Assembly (NCBI GenBank): GCA_001790855.1
Contig: MGDH01000026.1
Location: 1-51,748, forward strand
Direction of reading: 5' to 3'
DNA from: Candidatus Schekmanbacteria bacterium RIFCSPLOWO2_02_FULL_38_14
Lineage (GTDB): Bacteria > Schekmanbacteria > GWA2-38-11
Length of the DNA: 51,748 nucleotides
Under the pieces are notes generated by a model. The model made no database searches, was not told the DNA's origin, and was given only the letters and a program-made list of their open reading frames with translations. Made by a program: the position numbers and the translations under genes. Shown in pieces: positions 3,066 to 43,910 of the stretch (positions are counted from its first letter, which is position 1; every line of letters begins with the position of its first letter).

Positions 3066-3506
3066 ATGAAACTATCATCTAGAACATTTTGTGCAAAAAA
3101 AGAAGATATGCAAAGAAGCTGGTATCTTGTTGATGCTGACGGGAAAACACTTGGAAGGCTTGCTTCAAAAATTGCAATGATACTTATGGGTAAAAACAAG
3201 CCGATTTATACACCGCACGTTGATACTGGAGACCATGTCGTAGTTATAAATGCTAAAAAAGTTATCCTTACCGGTGATAAGCTTAATAACAAAATTTATT
3301 ACTCTCATTCAAACTATCCGGGCGGACTAAAAGAAATAAATGCTAAAAAGCTTTTAGAAAAAAAGCCTGAAATGTTACTTGAGAAAGCAGTACAAAGGAT
3401 GTTGCCAAAAAATAAACTTGGAAGAGCTATGGCAACAAAACTTAAAGTATACAGCGGAGGCACACATCCTCATCAGTCACAGAACCCTCAAACCTTAAAT
3501 TTATAA
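3066..3506 (+). CDS. rplM: Ribosomal protein uL13
   Basis: The 146-residue protein is a component of the 50S subunit. The family signatures [16 protein letters not shown] (about residues 19-34) and [16 protein letters not shown] (about 50-65) are present, as are [13 protein letters not shown] and [13 protein letters not shown] near the end. The ATG at 3066 is used; the few residues before FCAKKEDM vary among homologues. It forms the conserved rplM-rpsI pair, with 13 bases to the next start. The promoter candidate upstream is described separately. Confidence 0.97.
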
Positions 3507-3519
3507 GGAGGTAGATACT

Positions 3520-3912
3520 TTGCCAGAACTTGGATTTTATGCAACAGGAAGAAGAAAAACTGCGATAGCCAGAGTATGGTTAAGACCCGGTGAAGGTAAA
3601 ATAACTGTAAACAGAAAAAAATTTGAAGACTATTTTCCTACTGAAACTCTCAGGAATACAATTCTCCATCCTTTAAAGCTAACAAACTCACTTGAAAAAT
3701 ATAACCTTCTTGTTACTGTGATCGGCGGAGGAATCTCAGGGCAGGCTGGAGCTCTGCGCCACGGAATAGCCAGAGCCCTCCTTCTATCAGATGTAAATTT
3801 AAGGTCATTATTAAGAAAAGAGGGTTTTTTAACAAGGGATCCAAGGGAAATCGAAAGAAAAAAATACGGCCAGAAAAAAGCAAGAAAGAGATTCCAGTTC
3901 TCCAAGAGATAA
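3520..3912 (+). CDS. rpsI: Ribosomal protein uS9
   Basis: The 130-residue 30S protein has the start motif [18 protein letters not shown] and the invariant basic tail [14 protein letters not shown], whose final residues reach the P-site tRNA. The start is TTG at 3520, supported by an AAGGAGGT site seven bases upstream; no in-frame ATG fits. It is cotranscribed with rplM. The next gene, rodA, converges from the other strand after a 61-base gap. Confidence 0.97.
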
Positions 3913-3949
3913 TCCGCCAGTCCTCATTGAATAGTATTTAGCAAAAAAT

Positions 3950-3975
3950 CATTATTCACTGTTCACTATTCACTC
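3950..3975. repeat. TTCACTATTCAC-type short repeat
   Basis: The stretch holds nearly tandem copies of an eight-base TTCACT(A/G)T unit, ending in the rodA stop codon. The same unit, in either orientation, recurs at about 41650-41670, 41775-41830, 43470-43500 and 43800-43828. Confidence 0.55.
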
Positions 3976-5131
3976 ATAACAAATATCTTCTCATCTGAAC
4001 ATTCAGTATCAGTCCTATTCCTGTCATTGTTATAATAACTGAAGTCCCTCCGTAGCTAATCAGAGGCAGAGGAACACCAACTATAGGTAAAAGCCCGACT
4101 GCCATTCCAATATTGATAAGCATGTTCAATGAAATCATCGCAGTAATGCCAAAGCACAGAAGGGCTGCAATTTTATCTTTTGCCCTGAATGATGCTTGAA
4201 TGCATAAAAATACCAGCCCAAAAAGCAATATAATAAAGACAAGAGAGCCCAGAAATCCCCATTCCTCTGCTATAATAGAAAAAATAAAATCTGTGTGGTG
4301 TTCCGGTAAAAACTTCAACTGTCCCTGCGTTCCGTTTAAAAACCCTTTTCCGAAAAAACCTCCTGACCCGATTGCAATTTCAGACTGAATTGTGTGATAA
4401 CCGCTTCCAAGTGGGTCCTGATACGGGTCAAAGAAACTGAACACTCTCTGTTTCTGATAAGGTTTTAAAAAATTCCACATTACAGCGCAGGAAATAATTC
4501 CAAATATTCCAGAATAAAGTGAGGTTTTCAGTTTAACCCCAACAGCAAAAATCAGGCAAACAGATATCAGAAAAAGTGAAAGAGCGGTCCCCAAATCGGG
4601 CTGAAGAAGTATCAACACAAATGGAATAAAGACAAGAATCAGAGGAACAACAAGCTCCTTTAAACCGTAGGAATCTTTTTTTCTTGATTCCCCAAAATAC
4701 TTCGTTAGTGCAAGTATGATTGAAAGCTTCACAACTTCAGATGGCTGTATTGAAAAAAATCCAACATCAATCCAGCGCCTTGAACCTGACCTGACATCTC
4801 CTATTACAATCAGCAGGACAAGGAGAAGCAAAGAAAAGAAATAAAAAAAATATCCGTATTTTACAACTGAATGGTAATCCAGAAAAGTTATCAGAAAAAG
4901 AATTATCAGTCCTGCCCAGACCCATAATGCCTGTTTTTTCCAATAGTTCTGGGATTCACTGCTGCGGTTTAAATTATCTTTTTTTAACAGATTGCTGCCT
5001 GCCTGACCTACATCTTCGGGAAAAGGCGAGTATGAGGCGCTGTAGATTTCAACAATTCCTATAACTGCAATAAGAATGGTCAGAAACAGAATCTTCCAGT
5101 CAAAATTCAAAATCAGTCTTCTGTCAAACAT
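3974..5131 (-). CDS. rodA: Rod-shape peptidoglycan glycosyltransferase RodA
   Basis: This is a SEDS-family polytopic membrane protein of 385 residues, with about ten hydrophobic segments. SEDS proteins polymerise lipid II into glycan strands with a partner class B penicillin-binding protein. Family motifs include QPSEVVKLSIIL, LQPDLGTALSL and the long external loop with GKGFLNGTQGQLKFLPEHHTDFIF, which contains the conserved region preceding the catalytic Asp area. The GVPLPLISYGGTS motif is near the C-terminus. FLPEHHTDFIFS favours RodA over FtsW. No mreBCD or pbp gene is adjacent. ATG 5131 is the natural start. Confidence 0.9.
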   Translation of the reverse strand: MFDRRLILNFDWKILFLTILIAVIGIVEIYSASYSPFPEDVGQAGSNLLKKDNLNRSSESQNYWKKQALWVWAGLIILFLITFLDYHSVVKYGYFFYFFSLLLLVLLIVIGDVRSGSRRWIDVGFFSIQPSEVVKLSIILALTKYFGESRKKDSYGLKELVVPLILVFIPFVLILLQPDLGTALSLFLISVCLIFAVGVKLKTSLYSGIFGIISCAVMWNFLKPYQKQRVFSFFDPYQDPLGSGYHTIQSEIAIGSGGFFGKGFLNGTQGQLKFLPEHHTDFIFSIIAEEWGFLGSLVFIILLFGLVFLCIQASFRAKDKIAALLCFGITAMISLNMLINIGMAVGLLPIVGVPLPLISYGGTSVIITMTGIGLILNVQMRRYLL

Positions 5132-5197
5132 AGCAAAACTTAGTGGTTTGAAATTAAAAAATCCGCGAGTTCAGGTAAAAAGTTTTGAATCCTTCAC

Positions 5198-6142
5198 TTA
5201 CGAACTAAACAATGCCTCAACAAAGTCTTTTGGATTAAACTCCTGAAAATCCTCTATCCCCTCTCCTACTCCGATAAATTTCACAGGGATTTTAAGCTCC
5301 TCAGCTATGGCAACGATAATCCCTCCCTTTGCAGTACCATCAAGCTTGGTCAGGACAATTCCTGTAAGTTCTAGGGCATCATTAAACATCTTTGCCTGCG
5401 CAATTGAATTCTGCCCGGTTGTGGCGTCAAGAACCAGAAGAATCTCATGAGGAGCACCTTCCATAGCCTTCCCGACAACTCTTTTCATTTTCTTTAACTC
5501 TTCCATCAGGTTTTTTTTAACATGAAGCCTTCCTGCTGTATCAATAATTAATATATCAATTTCCCTTGCCATTGCAGATTTTATGGAATCAAAAGCCACT
5601 GAACTCGGGTCAGAACCATCATTTCCTCTTACAACAGGAACATCAGCACGCCTTCCCCATATCTCAAGCTGTTCGTCTGCTGCTGCCCTGAAGGTGTCTG
5701 CTGCGGCAAGCATAACTTTTTTGCCTTCCTGTGTAAAAAGAGAAGCGAATTTCCCAATAGTTGTTGTCTTCCCAACACCGTTAACACCAACAACCATAAT
5801 AACAGAGGGTTTTTCAAAATTGCTTTTTTCTGAAGAAGAACACTGACCTGATTCAAGGGTTTCAATGAACTTTTTTTTGAGATAATCTTTCAAAAGATTA
5901 GCTTCCTTAACTTTTTCATTCTTAACATAATTCTTCAAATCTTCAATGAACCTGTTTGACGCCTGAACTCCAAGGTCAGAAAGAATCAATATCTCTTCCA
6001 GTTCTGTAAAGAACTCCTCATCAATCCCCTGTCCAAGAGAAAGCAGGTTCTCAACCCTTGATATTAATCCCTGTCTTGTCTTTGAAAGACCATTTTTTAA
6101 GCGTGAAAAAAAATTGTTAGATTTTTTTAATAAATTTTTCAA
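5198..6142 (-). CDS. ftsY: Signal recognition particle receptor FtsY
   Basis: FtsY is the GTPase that docks SRP-ribosome complexes at the inner membrane. The 314 residues form the NG core without a long acidic A domain: the N domain is about 1-100 and the G domain about 110-314. Visible motifs are the P-loop GVNGVGKTT (119-127), DTFRAAADEQLE (G2), DTAGRLH (G3) and TKLDGTAKGG (G4). The start overlaps the 3' end of the upstream aminotransferase gene by 26 bases, so translation is probably coupled. Confidence in function is very high. Confidence 0.97.
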   Translation of the reverse strand: MKNLLKKSNNFFSRLKNGLSKTRQGLISRVENLLSLGQGIDEEFFTELEEILILSDLGVQASNRFIEDLKNYVKNEKVKEANLLKDYLKKKFIETLESGQCSSSEKSNFEKPSVIMVVGVNGVGKTTTIGKFASLFTQEGKKVMLAAADTFRAAADEQLEIWGRRADVPVVRGNDGSDPSSVAFDSIKSAMAREIDILIIDTAGRLHVKKNLMEELKKMKRVVGKAMEGAPHEILLVLDATTGQNSIAQAKMFNDALELTGIVLTKLDGTAKGGIIVAIAEELKIPVKFIGVGEGIEDFQEFNPKDFVEALFSS

Positions 6143-7256
6143 TTCTCCTCATTCCCTCTTTAATATTTTCAATTGAATTTGAATAAGAAAATCTTATATA
6201 CCCTTCAGCATTTGTTCCAAAATCGATTCCCGGTGTAACAGCAACCTTTGCCTCTCTTAAGATTTTAAAGGCAAACTCATATGAATTCTCTGAGAACTTC
6301 TTTGCATTTGCCAGAACATAAAAAGCCCCTGTGGGCAACACCTTTATTCCAAAACCCAGCTCCCTGAGCCTGTTAACCATATATAACCTTCTCTGGTTAA
6401 AGATAGTAACCATTTTTTTTACATCTTTCCCTGCATTTTTTAAAGCAGAAATCCCAGCCCACTGTGCAAAAGAAGAAGCGGAAATAAAAAGATTCTGCTG
6501 CAGCTTCTGCATCGCTCTCACAAACTTTTTAGGAGCGATAACATAACCCAGCCGCCATCCTGTCATTGCATAGAGTTTTGAAAACCCGTTAAGAACAAAA
6601 GCCCTGTCAGTAAATTCAAGCATTGAGTGTTCCTCTCCTTCGTATATCAATCCGTGATATATTTCATCAGAAATCACAAACACAGGAAGATTTGCTAATT
6701 CTTCCAGCACTTTTTTCTTTAAGACTGCACCTGTAGGATTTGCAGGGGAATTAACTACAATACCCTTTGTTTTTTTTGAAAGTTTTTTCCTGAACTCATC
6801 TGCATCGTATTGAAACCCCTCTTTCTCAAATATATCCACAAACACAGGAATACCTTCTACAAACCTGATAAAATTCGGATAACAGGAGTAATGAGGATTG
6901 GATAAAACAACCTCATCACCCTGATTCAGCAAAGCACCAAAGACAAGAAGCATTGCCGGAGAAGTTCCGCTTGTAACGATTATCTGGTTAGGGCTGACAT
7001 CAACGCCGTACCTTTTGAAATAATGCTCTGCTATTGTTTCCCTAAGTTCAATTATTCCCATACTATGTGTATAGTGGGTTATTCCATTTCTTAAAGCCCT
7101 GTATCCTTCTTCTTTTATAACCCTTGGCGTGTCAAAATCAGGCTCCCCAACCTCAAGATGAATAATATCCTCACCTGCTTTTTCCATAGCCTTGGCTTCA
7201 TCAAGCACATCCATTACAATAAACGGTGAAATATCTTTTGCTCTGCTGGATATCAT
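6117..7256 (-). CDS. Class I/II PLP-dependent aminotransferase (aspartate aminotransferase-like)
   Basis: The 379-residue enzyme has the fold-type I layout: NSPANPTG (169-176), SDEIYHGL (196-203), the PLP-binding Lys227 in NGFSKLYAMTGWRLGY, and an Arg-containing RFSYSNS segment near the C-terminus that would bind the substrate carboxylate. The family covers aspartate, alanine and related aminotransferases, so the amino donor cannot be fixed from sequence alone. It overlaps ftsY. ATG 7256 starts the gene. The upstream region to the divergent histidine kinase gene is 131 bases. Confidence 0.9.
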   Translation of the reverse strand: MISSRAKDISPFIVMDVLDEAKAMEKAGEDIIHLEVGEPDFDTPRVIKEEGYRALRNGITHYTHSMGIIELRETIAEHYFKRYGVDVSPNQIIVTSGTSPAMLLVFGALLNQGDEVVLSNPHYSCYPNFIRFVEGIPVFVDIFEKEGFQYDADEFRKKLSKKTKGIVVNSPANPTGAVLKKKVLEELANLPVFVISDEIYHGLIYEGEEHSMLEFTDRAFVLNGFSKLYAMTGWRLGYVIAPKKFVRAMQKLQQNLFISASSFAQWAGISALKNAGKDVKKMVTIFNQRRLYMVNRLRELGFGIKVLPTGAFYVLANAKKFSENSYEFAFKILREAKVAVTPGIDFGTNAEGYIRFSYSNSIENIKEGMRRIEKFIKKI

Positions 7257-7387
7257 AGTAAATTTTTAATCACAGAAAAGGCTCTTTGTCAAACACTACA
7301 AGCCATATATTGTTGCAATCGCTATTTTTCTGTTGTAAAATAATTTTTGTTCTTTACAATGTCGTATTGAGGAATAATTTTTAACAT

Positions 7388-8452
7388 TTGTTTTTTGAAT
7401 TTACTATGACAACAAGTATACCTATTTTACCAAACATAATAGAAAACCTCGGCAGCGGAATTATAATTATTGACAAATCAGACAACATCACTTTTATTAA
7501 CTCAATTGCGGAGAAACTGCTTGGCTTGAAAAGCAAAGATGTCCTTTTCAAACCAACAAATCATATTTTTTCTGAAAAAATAATCCTTGATATCCTTTCC
7601 TCTGTAAAAAAAACAGAAGAGGCGTTAAATTATAAAATTGCAATCACTAAGCCCAAAAGAAGAAACTTGACTCTCAATGTAGCTCCGATCTTTGATTCCA
7701 GTGAAAAATACAATGGAACAGTGATAATGCTGATAAACTCTTTCAGGGAAAAGCCTATCAAATTCCAGCTTCTGAAGCAGAACCAGAAAGCAACAATCGG
7801 AACCCTTACAAGCTGGGTTGCCCACGAGGTAAGAAATCCGCTTACATCAATGAACCTCCACCTTGACCTCTTGAAAGAAGAGATAAACGAGAATTCCCAA
7901 AATACTTCAAAAGAGATTGTCGAGTTAATAGAAACATTGGAACAGGAAGTTGAGAGATTAAATAACAATCTGAATGAGTTTTTAAACTTCGGGGTAATTT
8001 CATCATCAAAAAAGAAATTGTATAATCTCAACGAAGTTGTGAAATCAATCATTGAACTTGTCCAGCCAGAGGCAGAAATGGCAAGAGTTGATGTTGTCCT
8101 GAAACTGGATGAATCCATTCCTAAAATTCTGATTGATGTTGCCCAGATGAGGCTTATGATTTTAAATTTAATAAAAAATTCAATCCAGGCAATGCCTGAT
8201 GGAGGAAAACTGGAAATAAAAACTGAAAAAAAGAATAACAAGGTAAACCTGAAAATAAAAGATAACGGGTTCGGGATTCCAAAAGAAGATTTAAAAAATA
8301 TTTTTGATTTTCTTTATACCAAGAAAAAGGACGGAACCGGTCTCGGATTAACCATATCCAAAAAGATTGTAAAGGAACACGAGGGGGATATCTTTGCAAA
8401 AAGTCAGGTCAACAAAGGTTCTATCTTCACTGTTTCACTGCCAATAATCTAA
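7388..8452 (+). CDS. PAS-domain sensor histidine kinase (NtrB-like)
   Basis: The protein is 354 residues with no membrane segment, so it probably senses a cytoplasmic signal. A PAS domain occupies about 12-120. The HisKA domain has the phosphoacceptor His146 in SWVAHEVRNPL. The HATPase domain shows the N box NLIKNSIQAM, the G1 box DNGFGIP and the G2 box GTGLGLTISKKI. The predicted start is TTG 7388, with a GAGGAA site about 12 bases upstream; ATG 7406 is a possible alternative. The gene is followed after 15 bases by its likely partner, a sigma54-dependent response regulator. The architecture matches NtrB and other kinases paired with sigma54 activators. Confidence 0.92.
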   Translation: MFFEFTMTTSIPILPNIIENLGSGIIIIDKSDNITFINSIAEKLLGLKSKDVLFKPTNHIFSEKIILDILSSVKKTEEALNYKIAITKPKRRNLTLNVAPIFDSSEKYNGTVIMLINSFREKPIKFQLLKQNQKATIGTLTSWVAHEVRNPLTSMNLHLDLLKEEINENSQNTSKEIVELIETLEQEVERLNNNLNEFLNFGVISSSKKKLYNLNEVVKSIIELVQPEAEMARVDVVLKLDESIPKILIDVAQMRLMILNLIKNSIQAMPDGGKLEIKTEKKNNKVNLKIKDNGFGIPKEDLKNIFDFLYTKKKDGTGLGLTISKKIVKEHEGDIFAKSQVNKGSIFTVSLPII

Positions 8453-8467
8453 TCTTTAACACAAACT

Positions 8468-9826
8468 ATGCAAAGCATAATACTGATAGCTGAAGATGAT
8501 AAAAAAATAGCTGAAGGGCTTGAAAAGTTTTTGAAGAAAAAGGGGCATAAGGTCCTTTTAGCTCACGATGGCAGAAAAGCGCTTGATATAGTAAAAAAGC
8601 AGAATATTAACCTGCTTCTTACAGACATGGTGCTTCCGAATATGGATGGAATCAGCCTGTTAAAAGAAACCAAAAACAGAAAACCTGAAATAGAGTGTAT
8701 TATGGTAACTGCCCATGGAACAATTGAAAAAGCAGTAGAAGCCTTGAAAATCGGCGCCTATGATTTTCTGATAAAGCCTGTAAATGTTAAGAGGCTTGGT
8801 ATTCTTATTGAGAAGGCGCTTGAAAAACAGGTCTTAATACTTAAAAACATTGAGCTTCAGCAAAAGCTTGAAGAGAGGTTTGGATTTAAAAATATAATTG
8901 GAAAAGGTAATGAGATAAAAAGAATACTTGAGCTTGTAAGTCAGGTTTCCTCTCGGAACAGCAATGTCCTCATCTACGGAGAAAGCGGTACAGGCAAGGA
9001 ACTTATTGCAAATGCAATTCATTACAGCGGAAACTTGCCGCAAAGCCCTTTTATAAAAGTCAACTGCAGCGTTTTTAATGAAGGAGTTCTTGAAAGCGAG
9101 CTTTTCGGACACGAAAAGGGATCATTTACAGGTGCTGCTTCACAGAGGATAGGAAGGTTTGAAATGGCTGACGGAGGCACTCTTTTTCTTGATGAAGTAA
9201 GCGAAATACCTCCTTCAATTCAGGTCAAGCTCCTCAGAGTAATACAGGAAAAGGAATTTGAAAGAGTTGGAGGGTCAAAAACCATCAAGGTTGATGTAAG
9301 AATAATTGCAGCAGCAAACAAGGATCTCAAAGAACTCGTAAAGCAGGAAAAATTCAGAGAGGATTTGTATTACAGGCTAAACGTTGTAAAAATTGATATT
9401 CCGCCTTTGAGAAACAGAAAAGAAGACATTCCCTTTCTTCTGAATTATTTTATTAGCAAGTTTAATAAGCAGTACGGCACTCAAATTAAAGGTGTAACTC
9501 GAAAAACGCTTAATCTGCTTTTAAATTATTATTGGCCCGGAAATGTCAGAGAGCTTGAAAACTGCATTGAATCTGCAATGGTGATGGCAAAGGATGAGTA
9601 TCTGACCCCAAAAGACCTGCCAGAATATGTTACAAGCCAGTCTGCTGACAATACTTCAGTAGTAATTGATATTGGTACTCCCCTTAAAGAAATAGAGAAA
9701 AACATTCTTACTAAAACTCTTGAGCTTGTTAAAGGAAACAAGGCAAAGGCTGCACAGCTCCTTGGAATAGGAGTAAAAACTGTTCACAGAAAATTTGAAG
9801 AATACGGCTTAAAACCTGTTAAGTGA
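8468..9826 (+). CDS. NtrC-family sigma54-dependent response regulator
   Basis: The 452-residue protein has three domains. The receiver (1-120) carries the acceptor Asp53 in LTDMVLP. The AAA+ domain (about 140-370) has Walker A GESGTGKE (171-178), the sigma54-contact loop GSFTGA (218-223, Ser in place of the usual Ala), and Walker [10 protein letters not shown]. The C-terminal Fis-type helix-turn-helix contains [20 protein letters not shown]. It remodels sigma54 holoenzyme at -24/-12 promoters. A near-consensus promoter of that type begins about 420 bases downstream, before speD, making that gene set a plausible target. Confidence 0.95.
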
Positions 9827-9889
9827 AAAATTAAAGAATTAAGCTTTACAAACCCAACCATACTCAGAATTGCAAAATAGATAAGTAAA

Positions 9890-10017
9890 AATCCCAAATC
9901 ATAATTACCAATTTTCCAAAAAACTCTAAACTTAAATTACCCTAATTTAAATTTTTTGAACATATGGAATTTTAAATTTAAGTATTATTTGGAAATTGTT
10001 ATTTGGAATTTGGAATT
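9890..10017. repeat. AT-rich imperfect inverted repeat, TTTGGAATTTGGAATT type
   Basis: The left arm (about 9890-9920) holds CCAATTTTCCAAA and the right arm (about 9986-10017) holds TTTGGAAATTG and TTTGGAATTTGGAATT, which are complementary with mismatches. An inner pair of complementary AT-rich blocks lies between them. A related element is at 48883-48980, and a fragment (ATTCCAAATTCCAAT) lies near 17033. It occupies much of the noncoding stretch 9827-10080, where no gene is visible. Confidence 0.6.
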
Positions 10018-10089
10018 TTTCTATCATTTAAACTTGCTTCTAACCCATTGTCATTACGACAAAAAAAAACAGCACGAAAGGGAAAATAT

Positions 10090-10143
10090 GGTCAATTTGA
10101 CATTTATTTCATCCTCTGCAAGTCAAAAATGTAAATATTGACC
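10090..10143 (+). promoter_or_regulatory. Palindromic candidate activator sites (UAS) upstream of the speD promoter
   Basis: GTCAATTTGAC (10091-10101) is a perfect odd palindrome. A second site, 10122-10142, has GTCAA and TTGAC ends separated by 11 bases. The block 10090-10105 is also an imperfect inverted copy of 10127-10143. The sites lie 107-160 bases upstream of the -24 element, the usual distance for an NtrC-type enhancer. Assignment to the adjacent regulator is inference. Confidence 0.5.
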
Positions 10144-10248
10144 TAATCATTAAAATATGCATTTAAAACACAGAAAGATCAATTTTTTTTGCAGCATTTA
10201 GCAAGTAATTTCAATATGTTATTCCATGATATATCAAGACTGTTTTTT

Positions 10249-10264
10249 TGGCATGAATTTTGCA
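10249..10264 (+). promoter_or_regulatory. Sigma54 (-24/-12) promoter of the speD operon
   Basis: The sequence TGGCATGAATTTTGCA has GG at 10250-10251 and GC at 10262-10263, exactly ten bases between them, as the sigma54 consensus requires. A run of seven T precedes the -24 box. Transcription would start near 10275, 47 bases before the speD ATG. A sigma54-dependent regulator gene lies immediately upstream. Confidence 0.8.
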
Positions 10265-10321
10265 TATGATTAAGACAAATATTTGAAATTAAAAAAAATT
10301 TATCATGGAGGGAACAATAGA

Positions 10322-10807
10322 ATGACAGGATTCGGTCCCCATCTCACTCTCGACGGTTATGGTTGCAATAGAAAAAAACTAGAAGATTTAGATATGATTT
10401 ATTCAATTCTTGATGAATTTCCTTCCAATATCGGTATGACAAAAATCATGCCTCCTTATGTCTTTCGCTACACAGGAGCAAAGCTTGAGGATTGGGGGGT
10501 TTCAGGGTTTGTGCTCATAGCAGAAAGCCATATAAGCATTCACACATTTCCTGTAAAAAACTATCTAAGCCTTGATATCTTCTCCTGCAAGCAGTTTGAT
10601 TCAGAAATAGCAGTCAGCTACATAAAAGAAATTTTTGAAATGAAAAAATACCAGATGAATCTATTCAATCGCGGAGATGAATTTCCAAAAGATATAGAAA
10701 AAACCACGAGAATAGTAGTAGGACAGAGGAAGAAAGTTACGCATCTGATAGATTTTCAGAGAGAAAACGGTATTAAATTATCACGGAAAAAAAATTTACT
10801 CATTTAG
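10322..10807 (+). CDS. speD: S-adenosylmethionine decarboxylase-family proenzyme
   Basis: The 161-residue protein belongs to the pyruvoyl-dependent AdoMet decarboxylase family. The enzyme supplies the aminopropyl donor for spermidine after self-cleavage. The cleavage-site Ser69, which becomes the pyruvoyl group, lies in AESHISIHTFP, with His74 nearby and the catalytic Cys89 in LDIFSCKQFD. The start is ATG 10322, preceded at nine bases by GGAGGG (10307-10312); an earlier TTG at 10283 lacks such a site. The C-terminus is extended beyond the core by about 25 basic residues. No spermidine synthase gene follows, and some SpeD homologues are known to decarboxylate other amino acids, so the substrate is not certain. 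It is first in a probable operon with lysine 2,3-aminomutase and an ATP-grasp ligase. Confidence 0.88.
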   Translation: MTGFGPHLTLDGYGCNRKKLEDLDMIYSILDEFPSNIGMTKIMPPYVFRYTGAKLEDWGVSGFVLIAESHISIHTFPVKNYLSLDIFSCKQFDSEIAVSYIKEIFEMKKYQMNLFNRGDEFPKDIEKTTRIVVGQRKKVTHLIDFQRENGIKLSRKKNLLI

Positions 10808-11113
10808 ATTAAAAGAAATAAGAGACGTTTTGCCGTGAATTTAGGAGAGGGGGATTGAATTTTTTTACCAGATTCCGATTTCTGTGACCTGCCAAGACTC
10901 TTCTGTCTGTCTAAAAGTTTTATAAATAAAATATTAAAAATATCTTTTGACCTGCTTTCTTTTTCTAAAAAATTGCATCTCTTTTACAGTTTAATAGCCC
11001 GGTCTACAAGAGCGGTTATTTTAACTTCCCCTGTAATGGCAATGCTGATAGAAGAGGTTTTCCCGCCAAAGCTTTTTATGAAATCACCAACCCCTGAAGG
11101 AGGAATCTAGCTT
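10808..11113 (+). other. 306-base gap inside the speD-ablA unit
   Basis: No clear gene, terminator or promoter is visible. The plus strand is open from about 10856 to a TAG at 11107 without a convincing start. The minus strand is open for about 43 codons (11106 to about 10990) and reads more like protein, including FIKSFGGKTSSISIAITGEV, but has no start codon or ribosome binding site. It may be the residue of a lost gene. The strong ablA ribosome binding site AAGGAGGAA lies at 11097-11105. Confidence 0.4.
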
Positions 11114-41837: not shown

Positions 41838-43343
41838 CTACTTCTTCCCTTTCTTCTTAAAATTCACCGTTACAGACTCAGGCCCATGAAGAGTGCTCTT
41901 GCCATTCCTGTTAATGTCTTCAAGTTTGTAAAAAAATGTTCTTCCAGGTTTAGCATTCCTATCCTTAAACTCATAGCTTGCTCCTGATGTTGCACTACTG
42001 ATTGCAGGAATTAGTCTCCTATTGATCCTTACATAATTCCCATCCTCTTTTTCAGAACGCAAAATATTAAAGCTAATATTGTCAATCTCTGTTCCTGTTT
42101 CCCATTTCAGCACAACTTTGCCTCCCCTTATCTCTGCTATGAAGGATGAAAGAGTAATAGCAGTTGGTATTTCCTCTGCTGAGTACAATCTATTCTGTTG
42201 ATAAAATTCATTGGCAATAAAAACTTCATTGCCTGCATTTCCATCAAAGTTTTTTATCAAGACCGCTGCACTGAAATCTGTGCCCTGCGGAAAGAAAGCA
42301 GGGGCAGCAATAGTAAAATTACCAGTACCATCGTTCATATAGACTTTATTTGCCGTACCACTACCCTCCCCATTGGCTACAACTATATCTAAATCCCCAT
42401 CTTTATCTAAATCTCCAAAAGCTGCATCGAAGCTATAATCGCTATCAACAGGTAATTTTGTTGAGGTATTATCTTCAAACTTTGAGGTGCTTGAATTAAA
42501 GACATACAACCGATTCTGCTGACCACCATCATTGGCGATAAAAATGTAATCAATCTTACCATCATTATCTATATCTGCAAGTGCGGCAGAATTACTTGAA
42601 TTAGTATCAGATGGAATTATTCCTGTTGTATCTTCAGTAAATATTCCAGTTCCACCATTACGTAAAAGTCTATTTGGTTGCTCGAGGGAATTGATAGCCA
42701 AGATATCCAAGTCTCCATCTCTGTCAAAATCAGCAAGGATTAACTTTTGTGTAACTAAAGAATTACTCCCTATTAATCTTGAAGAAGTTTCATCAACAAA
42801 ATTTGTCATGCTATTATTTATCAATACCCTTATTGCATTGCTTTTAGAAAGCGAAGAGGCTGAAACGACTAAATCTAAATCACCATCCCCATCTATGTCA
42901 CCAAAAGCTTCGCTGGTATAAAATCGAGTCACTTGTGGAAGCCATGTTGTTCCCAGATTCGTGAAAACTCCTGCTCCGTTGTTTATCAAGAGCTTATTAA
43001 TCCCATTATTGGCTACAAATATATCTATGTCACCATCTCCATCCACATCCCCTGCTGCTGCACCATGACTATCGTCAGTATCTTGAGGTAATCTTGTAGA
43101 GGTAGAGTCTGAAAAGACACCTGAGCCATTGTTGAGCAGAAGGCGGTCCTGCCCATTGTTGGCCACAAAGATATCAAAGTCTCCATCATTTTCTATATCA
43201 ACAGCTACTGCACCAATACTGTAATCAAGAATTGCTGGAAGGTTTGTAGATGTAATATCAGAGAAATTTGCTGATTGAGAAAATTCTGGAAAAAGAAAAA
43301 CTAAAAACATCGCAAAGAAAAACTTTATAGATTTAAACTGCAT
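41838..43343 (-). CDS. Secreted FG-GAP/VCBS repeat protein
   Basis: The 501-residue protein has a signal peptide (about 1-25, ending FSQSA). Seven FG-GAP/VCBS-like repeats (about 35-395) follow, each with a calcium-binding D-x-D-x-D-G-D pattern, for example GDVDGDGDIDIFVANNG and GDLDKDGDLDIVVANGEG. They would form a seven-bladed beta propeller. The C-terminal part (about 400-501) resembles a fibronectin-type domain: VVLKWETGTEIDNISFNIL. It is probably exported, with an adhesive or matrix role. It ends in basic KKKGKK without a recognised sorting signal. It lies downstream, on the same strand, of the small-peptide genes at 43506-43910 and may share their promoter. Confidence 0.85.
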   Translation of the reverse strand: MQFKSIKFFFAMFLVFLFPEFSQSANFSDITSTNLPAILDYSIGAVAVDIENDGDFDIFVANNGQDRLLLNNGSGVFSDSTSTRLPQDTDDSHGAAAGDVDGDGDIDIFVANNGINKLLINNGAGVFTNLGTTWLPQVTRFYTSEAFGDIDGDGDLDLVVSASSLSKSNAIRVLINNSMTNFVDETSSRLIGSNSLVTQKLILADFDRDGDLDILAINSLEQPNRLLRNGGTGIFTEDTTGIIPSDTNSSNSAALADIDNDGKIDYIFIANDGGQQNRLYVFNSSTSKFEDNTSTKLPVDSDYSFDAAFGDLDKDGDLDIVVANGEGSGTANKVYMNDGTGNFTIAAPAFFPQGTDFSAAVLIKNFDGNAGNEVFIANEFYQQNRLYSAEEIPTAITLSSFIAEIRGGKVVLKWETGTEIDNISFNILRSEKEDGNYVRINRRLIPAISSATSGASYEFKDRNAKPGRTFFYKLEDINRNGKSTLHGPESVTVNFKKKGKK

Positions 43344-43505: not shown

Positions 43506-43661
43506 TCAGCTTCCTTCATTAAAGCACTGGGGAATAATGCACCCGCTCTGGTTTGGTCCTGCTTGTGTGTTGTTCTTGCACACACCAAGCACAGCTTCTT
43601 CAGCAACAAGATTGACCTTGTTTAATACTGGTTTCCTGTAAGGTTTTTTTTCACAAAACAC
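43506..43661 (-). pseudogene. Cys-containing RiPP-precursor-like small peptide gene (copy A), out of frame with its start
   Basis: A 51-codon frame reads EKKPYRKPVLNKVNLVAEEA, then VLGVCKNNTQAGPNQSGC and IIPQCFNEGS before a TGA. The basic N-terminal part, EEAVLGVCK region and short Cys/Gly/Asn core look like a ribosomally made, modified peptide precursor. The best start, GTG 43654-43652, is six bases after AGGAG (43665-43661) but enters a run of eight A in the wrong frame and stops after nine codons. Nine A would give MKKKPYRKPVL in frame. GTG 43661 is in frame but overlaps its ribosome binding site. This may be slippage, phase variation, mutation or sequencing error. Copy B lies upstream. 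Confidence 0.6.
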
Positions 43662-43698
43662 TCCTATTTTAAAATAAATTCTAAATTCTAAACAATGC

Positions 43699-43746
43699 GT
43701 TGACTTTGTTCAGCATGGTGAGCTGTGAGCTTGCCGAACAGTCAAC
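43699..43746. repeat. Inverted repeat GTTGACT...AGTCAAC
   Basis: The ends GTTGACTTTGTTC (43699-43711) and GAACAGTCAAC (43736-43746) are complementary apart from two extra T. The interior, GCATGGTGAGCTGTGAGCTT, resembles widely dispersed TTCGACAAGCTCACC-type intergenic repeats. Confidence 0.5.
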
Positions 43747-43774
43747 CACAAAATTCAAAACAAATATATGAAAT

Positions 43775-43793
43775 AGCAGAGCAAGGCTCTGCT
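43775..43793. terminator. Short GC-rich hairpin between the two peptide genes
   Basis: AGCAGAGC (43775-43782) and GCTCTGCT (43786-43793) pair perfectly around AAG. There is no long T-run, so it may be an attenuator or RNA-stability structure rather than a full terminator. Confidence 0.35.
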
Positions 43794-43831
43794 GCTACTT
43801 TTCACTAAATGCTGTTCACTATTCACTTCTT

Positions 43832-43910
43832 TTAGCTTCCCTGATTAACGCACTGAGGGATAAGGCGCTGGAAGCAGTGGTTTCTGGTAAGATTTTTTAT
43901 TGGATTTCAT
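43832..43910 (-). pseudogene. RiPP-precursor-like small peptide gene (copy B), internally deleted
   Basis: ATG 43910 follows an AAGGAG site (43926-43921) by ten bases and encodes MKSNKKSYQKPLL, matching the start of copy A (KKPYRKPVL). That frame soon ends at 43845. Another frame over the same bases encodes LIPQCVNQGS and stops at 43832, matching the copy A ending IIPQCFNEGS. The whole middle of copy A is missing, so a deletion of about 75 bases plus a frame change is the simplest explanation. A sigma54-type promoter candidate lies just upstream. Confidence 0.6.

Follow-up and report, generated by a model that had tools for sequence, protein, structure and literature searches.

A probably recently inactivated member of a dispersed, multi-copy family of RiPP-like precursor peptides in Candidatus Schekmanbacteria

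Introduction

Short cysteine-containing peptides served by radical-SAM/SPASM enzymes and PqqD-like chaperones are known as RiPP precursors from systems such as SynChlorMet (ScmC/D/E/F), GeoRSP and the PapB ranthipeptide. The peptide family described here resembles these precursors in being short and Cys-containing, and its distant homologues lie in a cassette of the order PqqD, radical-SAM (rSAM), precursor, HprK-like (ScmC-like) and S24/signal-peptidase-like gene. Unlike in the described systems, however, neither precursor nor rSAM reaches an NCBIfam equivalog cut-off, the cassette does not reach the cut-offs of ScmC-F, and the precursors of near relatives are present in several copies that are unlinked from the cassette.

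One member of this family, here called copy A, is encoded on the minus strand of contig MGDH01000026.1 of Candidatus Schekmanbacteria bacterium RIFCSPLOWO2_02_FULL_38_14, of which we analysed a stretch of 51,748 nt (the window). A run of eight A (A8) stands at its start. In Blochmannia and Buchnera, transcriptional slippage may restore genes that carry a frameshift in a poly(A) tract (PMC3017870). Copy A shares with these cases an AT-rich genome, a single indel beside an A run and an otherwise conserved gene, but its run measures 8 nt and not at least 9, its own genome avoids runs of 9 or more but not of 8, it belongs to a redundant set, and nothing seen here points to rescue. In E. coli the heptamer A_AAA_AAC promotes -1 frameshifting with low efficiency, although some IS elements very likely rely on it (PMC4066793); the same heptamer is found in the right phase in copy A, but there it is unconserved, has no stimulator and has a zero-frame product of only 10 aa. 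With simple-sequence contingency loci copy A has in common a homopolymer at the start codon, but its run is short, non-conserved and at chance level.

Results

The minus strand from 43675 to 43640 reads ATTTTAAAATAGGAGTGTTTTGTGAAAAAAAACCTT. From 43665 downwards it consists of AGGAG, TGTTTT, GTG, AAAAAAAA and CCTTACAGGAAACCA in this order, CCTTAC following the A8 run (Table 1). The spacer of 6 nt between AGGAG and the GTG at 43654 is comparable to the 4-10 nt that precede the ATG starts of intact copies. An earlier, sequence-only reading of this DNA had claimed that this well-placed GTG (43654-43652) enters the A8 run in the wrong frame, which direct reading and translation bear out: translation from it yields MKKNLTGNQY followed by a stop (10 aa), and the body of copy A, about 44 codons from CCT at 43643 to TGA at 43506, lies in another frame. 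The body frame stays open further 5', and the mechanical ORF list gives it a 51-aa ORF (MFCEKKPYRKPVL...) from the GTG at 43661, the product of which begins MFCEKKPY... Since this GTG overlaps the Shine-Dalgarno-like motif, it has no spaced ribosome-binding site. The GTG at 43661, the A_AAA_AAC heptamer and the possibility of a lesion outside the A run had been absent from the sequence-only reading.

Table 1. Features at and around copy A in the window.
Feature	Coordinates	Strand	Basis or remark
FG-GAP repeat protein gene, secreted type, 501 aa, downstream of copy A	41838..43343	-	C-terminal module common to proteins beside other copies
Conserved body of copy A, PYRKPVLNKVNLVAEEAVLGVCKNNTQAGPNQSGCIIPQCFNEGS + TGA	43506..43643	-	homology to 15 intact copies
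In-frame -1 slippery heptamer A_AAA_AAC	43643..43649	-	phase read from GTG 43654
A8 run	43644..43651	-	direct read; frequency at chance level
Best-placed start GTG	43652..43654	-	6 nt after AGGAG; out of frame with peptide body
Body-frame GTG overlapping AGGAG, no spaced SD	43659..43661	-	start of mechanical 51-aa ORF
Shine-Dalgarno-like (SD) AGGAG	43661..43665	-	direct read and comparison of family starts
Weak promoter-like site 5' of copy A	43685..43712	-	9/12 matches, chance-level
Tail of copy B, LIPQCVNQGS-stop, another frame	43832..43864	-	comparison with C4 copy
Head of copy B, MKSNKKSYQKPLL...	43845..43910	-	ATG with SD AAGGAG 43926-43921; out of frame after loss

Pfam and NCBIfam scans of the peptide gave nothing relevant, nor did an NCBIfam scan of 13 family members. 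By protein search, two intact full-length paralogues were found in the same genome (C4:657-803, MEKKSYKKPSLTKVKLVPEEAVLGICKNDLGAGPNQSQCLIPQCFNGGS, and C43:10050-9898), and three near relatives belonging to the same family/order as this genome contain 13 intact orthologues (three in G001, eight in G002 and two in G003). The family comprises peptides of 49-52 aa with the pattern KK.Y.KP...KVKLVPEEAVLGVCK....GPNQS.CIIPQCFN.GS, in which the alignment positions K, Y, P, E, L, CK, G, C and the terminal S are invariant. Every intact copy starts with ATG, 5-8 codons ahead of the conserved Tyr, and nearly every one has an SD-like motif 4-10 nt 5' of this ATG. The body of copy A matches the C4 copy with E = 1.4e-19 and a G002 copy with E = 2.4e-20, and because it is homologous to intact peptides elsewhere, the frame break is not a matter of chance. 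In the scan of genome contigs the nearest named relative was Candidatus Schekmanbacteria GWA2_38_11; beyond it the scan gave distant relatives only, and the locus was not recovered at strain level.

Measured against the intact copies, the SD-spaced GTG of copy A is one base out of register, a frame-disrupting change relative to intact homologues in which the placement of the indel is ambiguous. The proposal that the run is one A short agrees with the family frame, but the comparison with the C4 copy fits an extra base just 5' of GAA as well as a missing A, so that the event may have taken place outside the A run. When the start region was aligned automatically, the alignments contained no gaps and were ambiguous, matching the GTG at 43661 to the ATG of the longer peptides; where the indel lies, and whether there is one at all, is therefore judged from the spacing between SD and GTG together with the N-terminal composition. 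The GTG at 43661 lies 7 codons before the Tyr, which is the distance of the ATG in most family members, and a reading without any indel, in which the peptide starts there, is not impossible. We consider it less likely, since this GTG has no usable SD and its product begins with Phe-Cys. The ribosome-binding site and the GTG would have been separated from the body by the gain or loss of one base, in the A run or beside it.

By itself, the A8 run is ordinary. The window contains 31 A/T runs of at least 8 nt, against 30.6 expected under a first-order Markov model, and in 99 ORFs of this genome (those in the window and in loci L014, L015, L016 and L059-L061 of G000) the count of A8 is 31, where shuffling of synonymous codons gives 30.5 +/- 3.8. 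Longer runs are avoided in the same ORFs, both for A (at least 9 nt; 8 observed against 17.7 +/- 3.0 in shuffles) and for T (at least 9 nt; 2 against 6.2). This avoidance of 9 or more, not of 8, agrees with the 9-nt threshold reported in many bacteria by Baranov et al. (PMC1088944). Of the remaining A/T runs in the window, about 25 with a length of 8-9 sit within intact long ORFs, and the 99 intact ORFs together hold 55 runs of at least 8. No other family member in the four genomes has a run of at least 8 at its start, all others having 3-7 A. The comparison of the tract in related genomes that had been proposed earlier thus yielded something other than a conserved A8: the homologues define the family frame, and some copies prove to be decayed.

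The dN/dS of copy A against its nearest copies is about 0.1-0.25, similar to that of pairs of intact copies or slightly higher, and indicates past purifying selection on the body. None of the 17 constrained residues has been lost and no stop has arisen, which makes the break recent, unless it is a consensus error; in a neutral simulation the 5% level lies at about 8 substitutions, which is an upper bound since the break. The body shows neither relaxed constraint nor further decay, and since decay is clear only in copy B, copy A is better called recently broken than an old pseudogene. To judge from these substitution patterns, copy A would have been under selection until recently, or would be so still, unless the break is an error. 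Copy B (43910-43832), compared with the C4 copy, has a good start, has lost 77 nt of its middle and has changed frame. In the C113 copy of G001, ATA replaces ATG, with Tyr-to-Asp and Ser-to-Arg in addition. Besides copy B, about seven other copies are fragments, start-less or deleted, which argues that loss of copies is normal in this family (birth-and-death decay); the damaged copies amount to about 9 of about 24 in total.

Copy A lies about 160 bp upstream of the FG-GAP protein gene, and most copies with known neighbours are situated about 50-300 bp from a large secreted-type protein gene on the same strand that carries the shared C-terminal module. Tandem units of a large surface-protein gene and a precursor are seen at 4284-11047 of locus L091 (G002:C7:426000-442000), and suggest that precursors and surface-protein genes are duplicated jointly, the number of precursors growing in this way. 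Around 7577 of locus L097 (G002:C6:20000-33000), a start-less precursor core lies immediately next to the 3' end of a gene for a surface protein, and looks as if its leader had been lost by deletion between the two genes. Dispersed repeats are also present at 43690-43810 of the window, within the 815-bp intergene, namely a palindrome (43775-43793) and a second element, both of which match many other contigs of the genome.

In Nitrospirae, Aminicenantes, Deltaproteobacteria and others, distant homologues stand directly behind PqqD-like and radical-SAM/SPASM genes and mostly precede an HprK/ScmC-like gene; homologues adjoining rSAM/SPASM and PqqD genes were found at loci L046-L053 and in G041. 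The genome of copy A has a stand-alone cassette of PqqD, rSAM, HprK-like and peptidase-like genes on contig C29, and its family copies lie elsewhere, on C4, C43 and C26. The rSAM of C29 is 55% identical to the one directly preceding a family member in an Aminicenantes contig. No recognisable precursor was found beside the cassette on C29, nor beside the same cassette of G002 and G003. At E < 1e-60 the maturase was detected in 5 of 60 genomes, four of which have clear precursors, and at this threshold it was not found in G001 (70% complete). Because the distant homologues directly follow radical-SAM/SPASM maturases in PqqD cassettes, the family peptides are probably RiPP precursors, and their modification in trans by the C29 cassette is likewise probable. 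In the intact peptides the N-terminal part (KP..L..EEAVLG) would act as a leader bound by the PqqD-like protein, and the Cys-containing C-terminal core would be modified in trans by the single radical-SAM/SPASM maturase on C29. A literature search for trans-acting rSAM maturases with scattered precursors retrieved no matching paper. A second RiPP-like cassette of the same genome, at 3137-9009 of locus L059 (C36:72000-86000), consists of PqqD, two radical-SAM, HprK-like, S24-like peptidase and nucleotidyltransferase-like genes, with MKYEKPELKSLNLKNPEPKSPNDEKIETAGGDVCTEGGNAGTCNIGYDDGHLTGG as candidate precursor.

Discussion

Copy A is probably a recently inactivated, or nearly inactivated, member of a dispersed multi-copy family of RiPP-like precursors. 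Recent inactivation was among the explanations offered by the sequence-only reading, and it fits best, as intact homologues set the frame, the body is conserved, and other copies, B included, have decayed. The undecayed body counts against it, being equally expected for a consensus error or a gene still in use. If the consensus or assembly were wrong, the real genome would be in the family frame and copy A would be a normal third precursor. Indel errors often concern the length of runs, and the full conservation of the body would follow naturally, but the assembly is not generally unreliable at runs, since the other runs of 8-9 in the window and those of at least 8 in the ORF set lie in intact ORFs; such an error seems to us quite unlikely. 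A phase-variable switch, in which reversible changes in the length of the A run toggle the peptide on and off, had also been suggested, and the run does directly follow the start codon and set the frame. This suggestion found no support: the run is short and at chance frequency, it extends beyond chance neither in length nor in number, its counterparts in related copies across the four genomes are of 3-7 A, and the change is equally explained by an indel outside the run. We regard such a switch as very unlikely.

It is also conceivable, although unlikely, that copy A is still expressed, whether from the GTG at 43661, through a -1 slip of the ribosome on A_AAA_AAC, or through one A added during transcription. 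The GTG at 43661 opens a body-frame ORF of 51 aa at the usual family distance from the Tyr, but its spacing from the SD is zero, and its product would begin with Phe-Cys, whereas the relatives have a polar N-terminus. The heptamer (43649-43643) is in phase, so that a -1 slip from the zero frame enters the body frame, and some IS elements very likely make use of A_AA.A_AA.C, but A_AAA_AAC is inefficient in E. coli (PMC4066793), the downstream RNA has no marked structure (z -1.23) that could act as a stimulator, and the signal is not conserved. Single-base transcriptional insertions climb steeply with run length (PMC5574713); however, A8 is not avoided in the genes of this genome while A9 and longer are (8 vs 17.7 +/- 3.0), from which it follows that A8 probably slips little. 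Transcriptional slippage, another earlier proposal, is therefore only weakly possible, the run lying below the avoided 9-nt length and being unconserved, as are the rescue signals in the family as a whole. Programmed slippage is not supported; low, leaky full-length expression via the heptamer or the GTG at 43661 is possible. A conserved recoding signal at the start of copy A was rejected because none is conserved in the family, and the 10-aa zero-frame ORF was rejected as a leader peptide as it has no supporting signal. If copy A has indeed been recently inactivated, its main product would now be a 10-aa dead-end peptide, accompanied by at most traces of full-length peptide made by slippage or started at the overlapping GTG at 43661.

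The peptide family is of more interest than the A8 run. From gene order and homology we propose, tentatively, that Schekmanbacteria may possess a RiPP-like system not yet described, whose single unlinked PqqD/radical-SAM cassette would modify many scattered precursors that duplicate and decay and mostly lie next to a large surface-protein gene; copy A would be one such precursor caught at the moment of loss. The analysis yields a list of intact family copies to express. Following the A8 run has brought to light, in an uncultivated phylum, a peptide family that had no annotation and that is probably served by a radical-SAM maturase acting in trans, and the repeated duplication of its members beside surface-protein genes, together with their repeated breakage, constitutes a small, tractable case of precursor birth and death.
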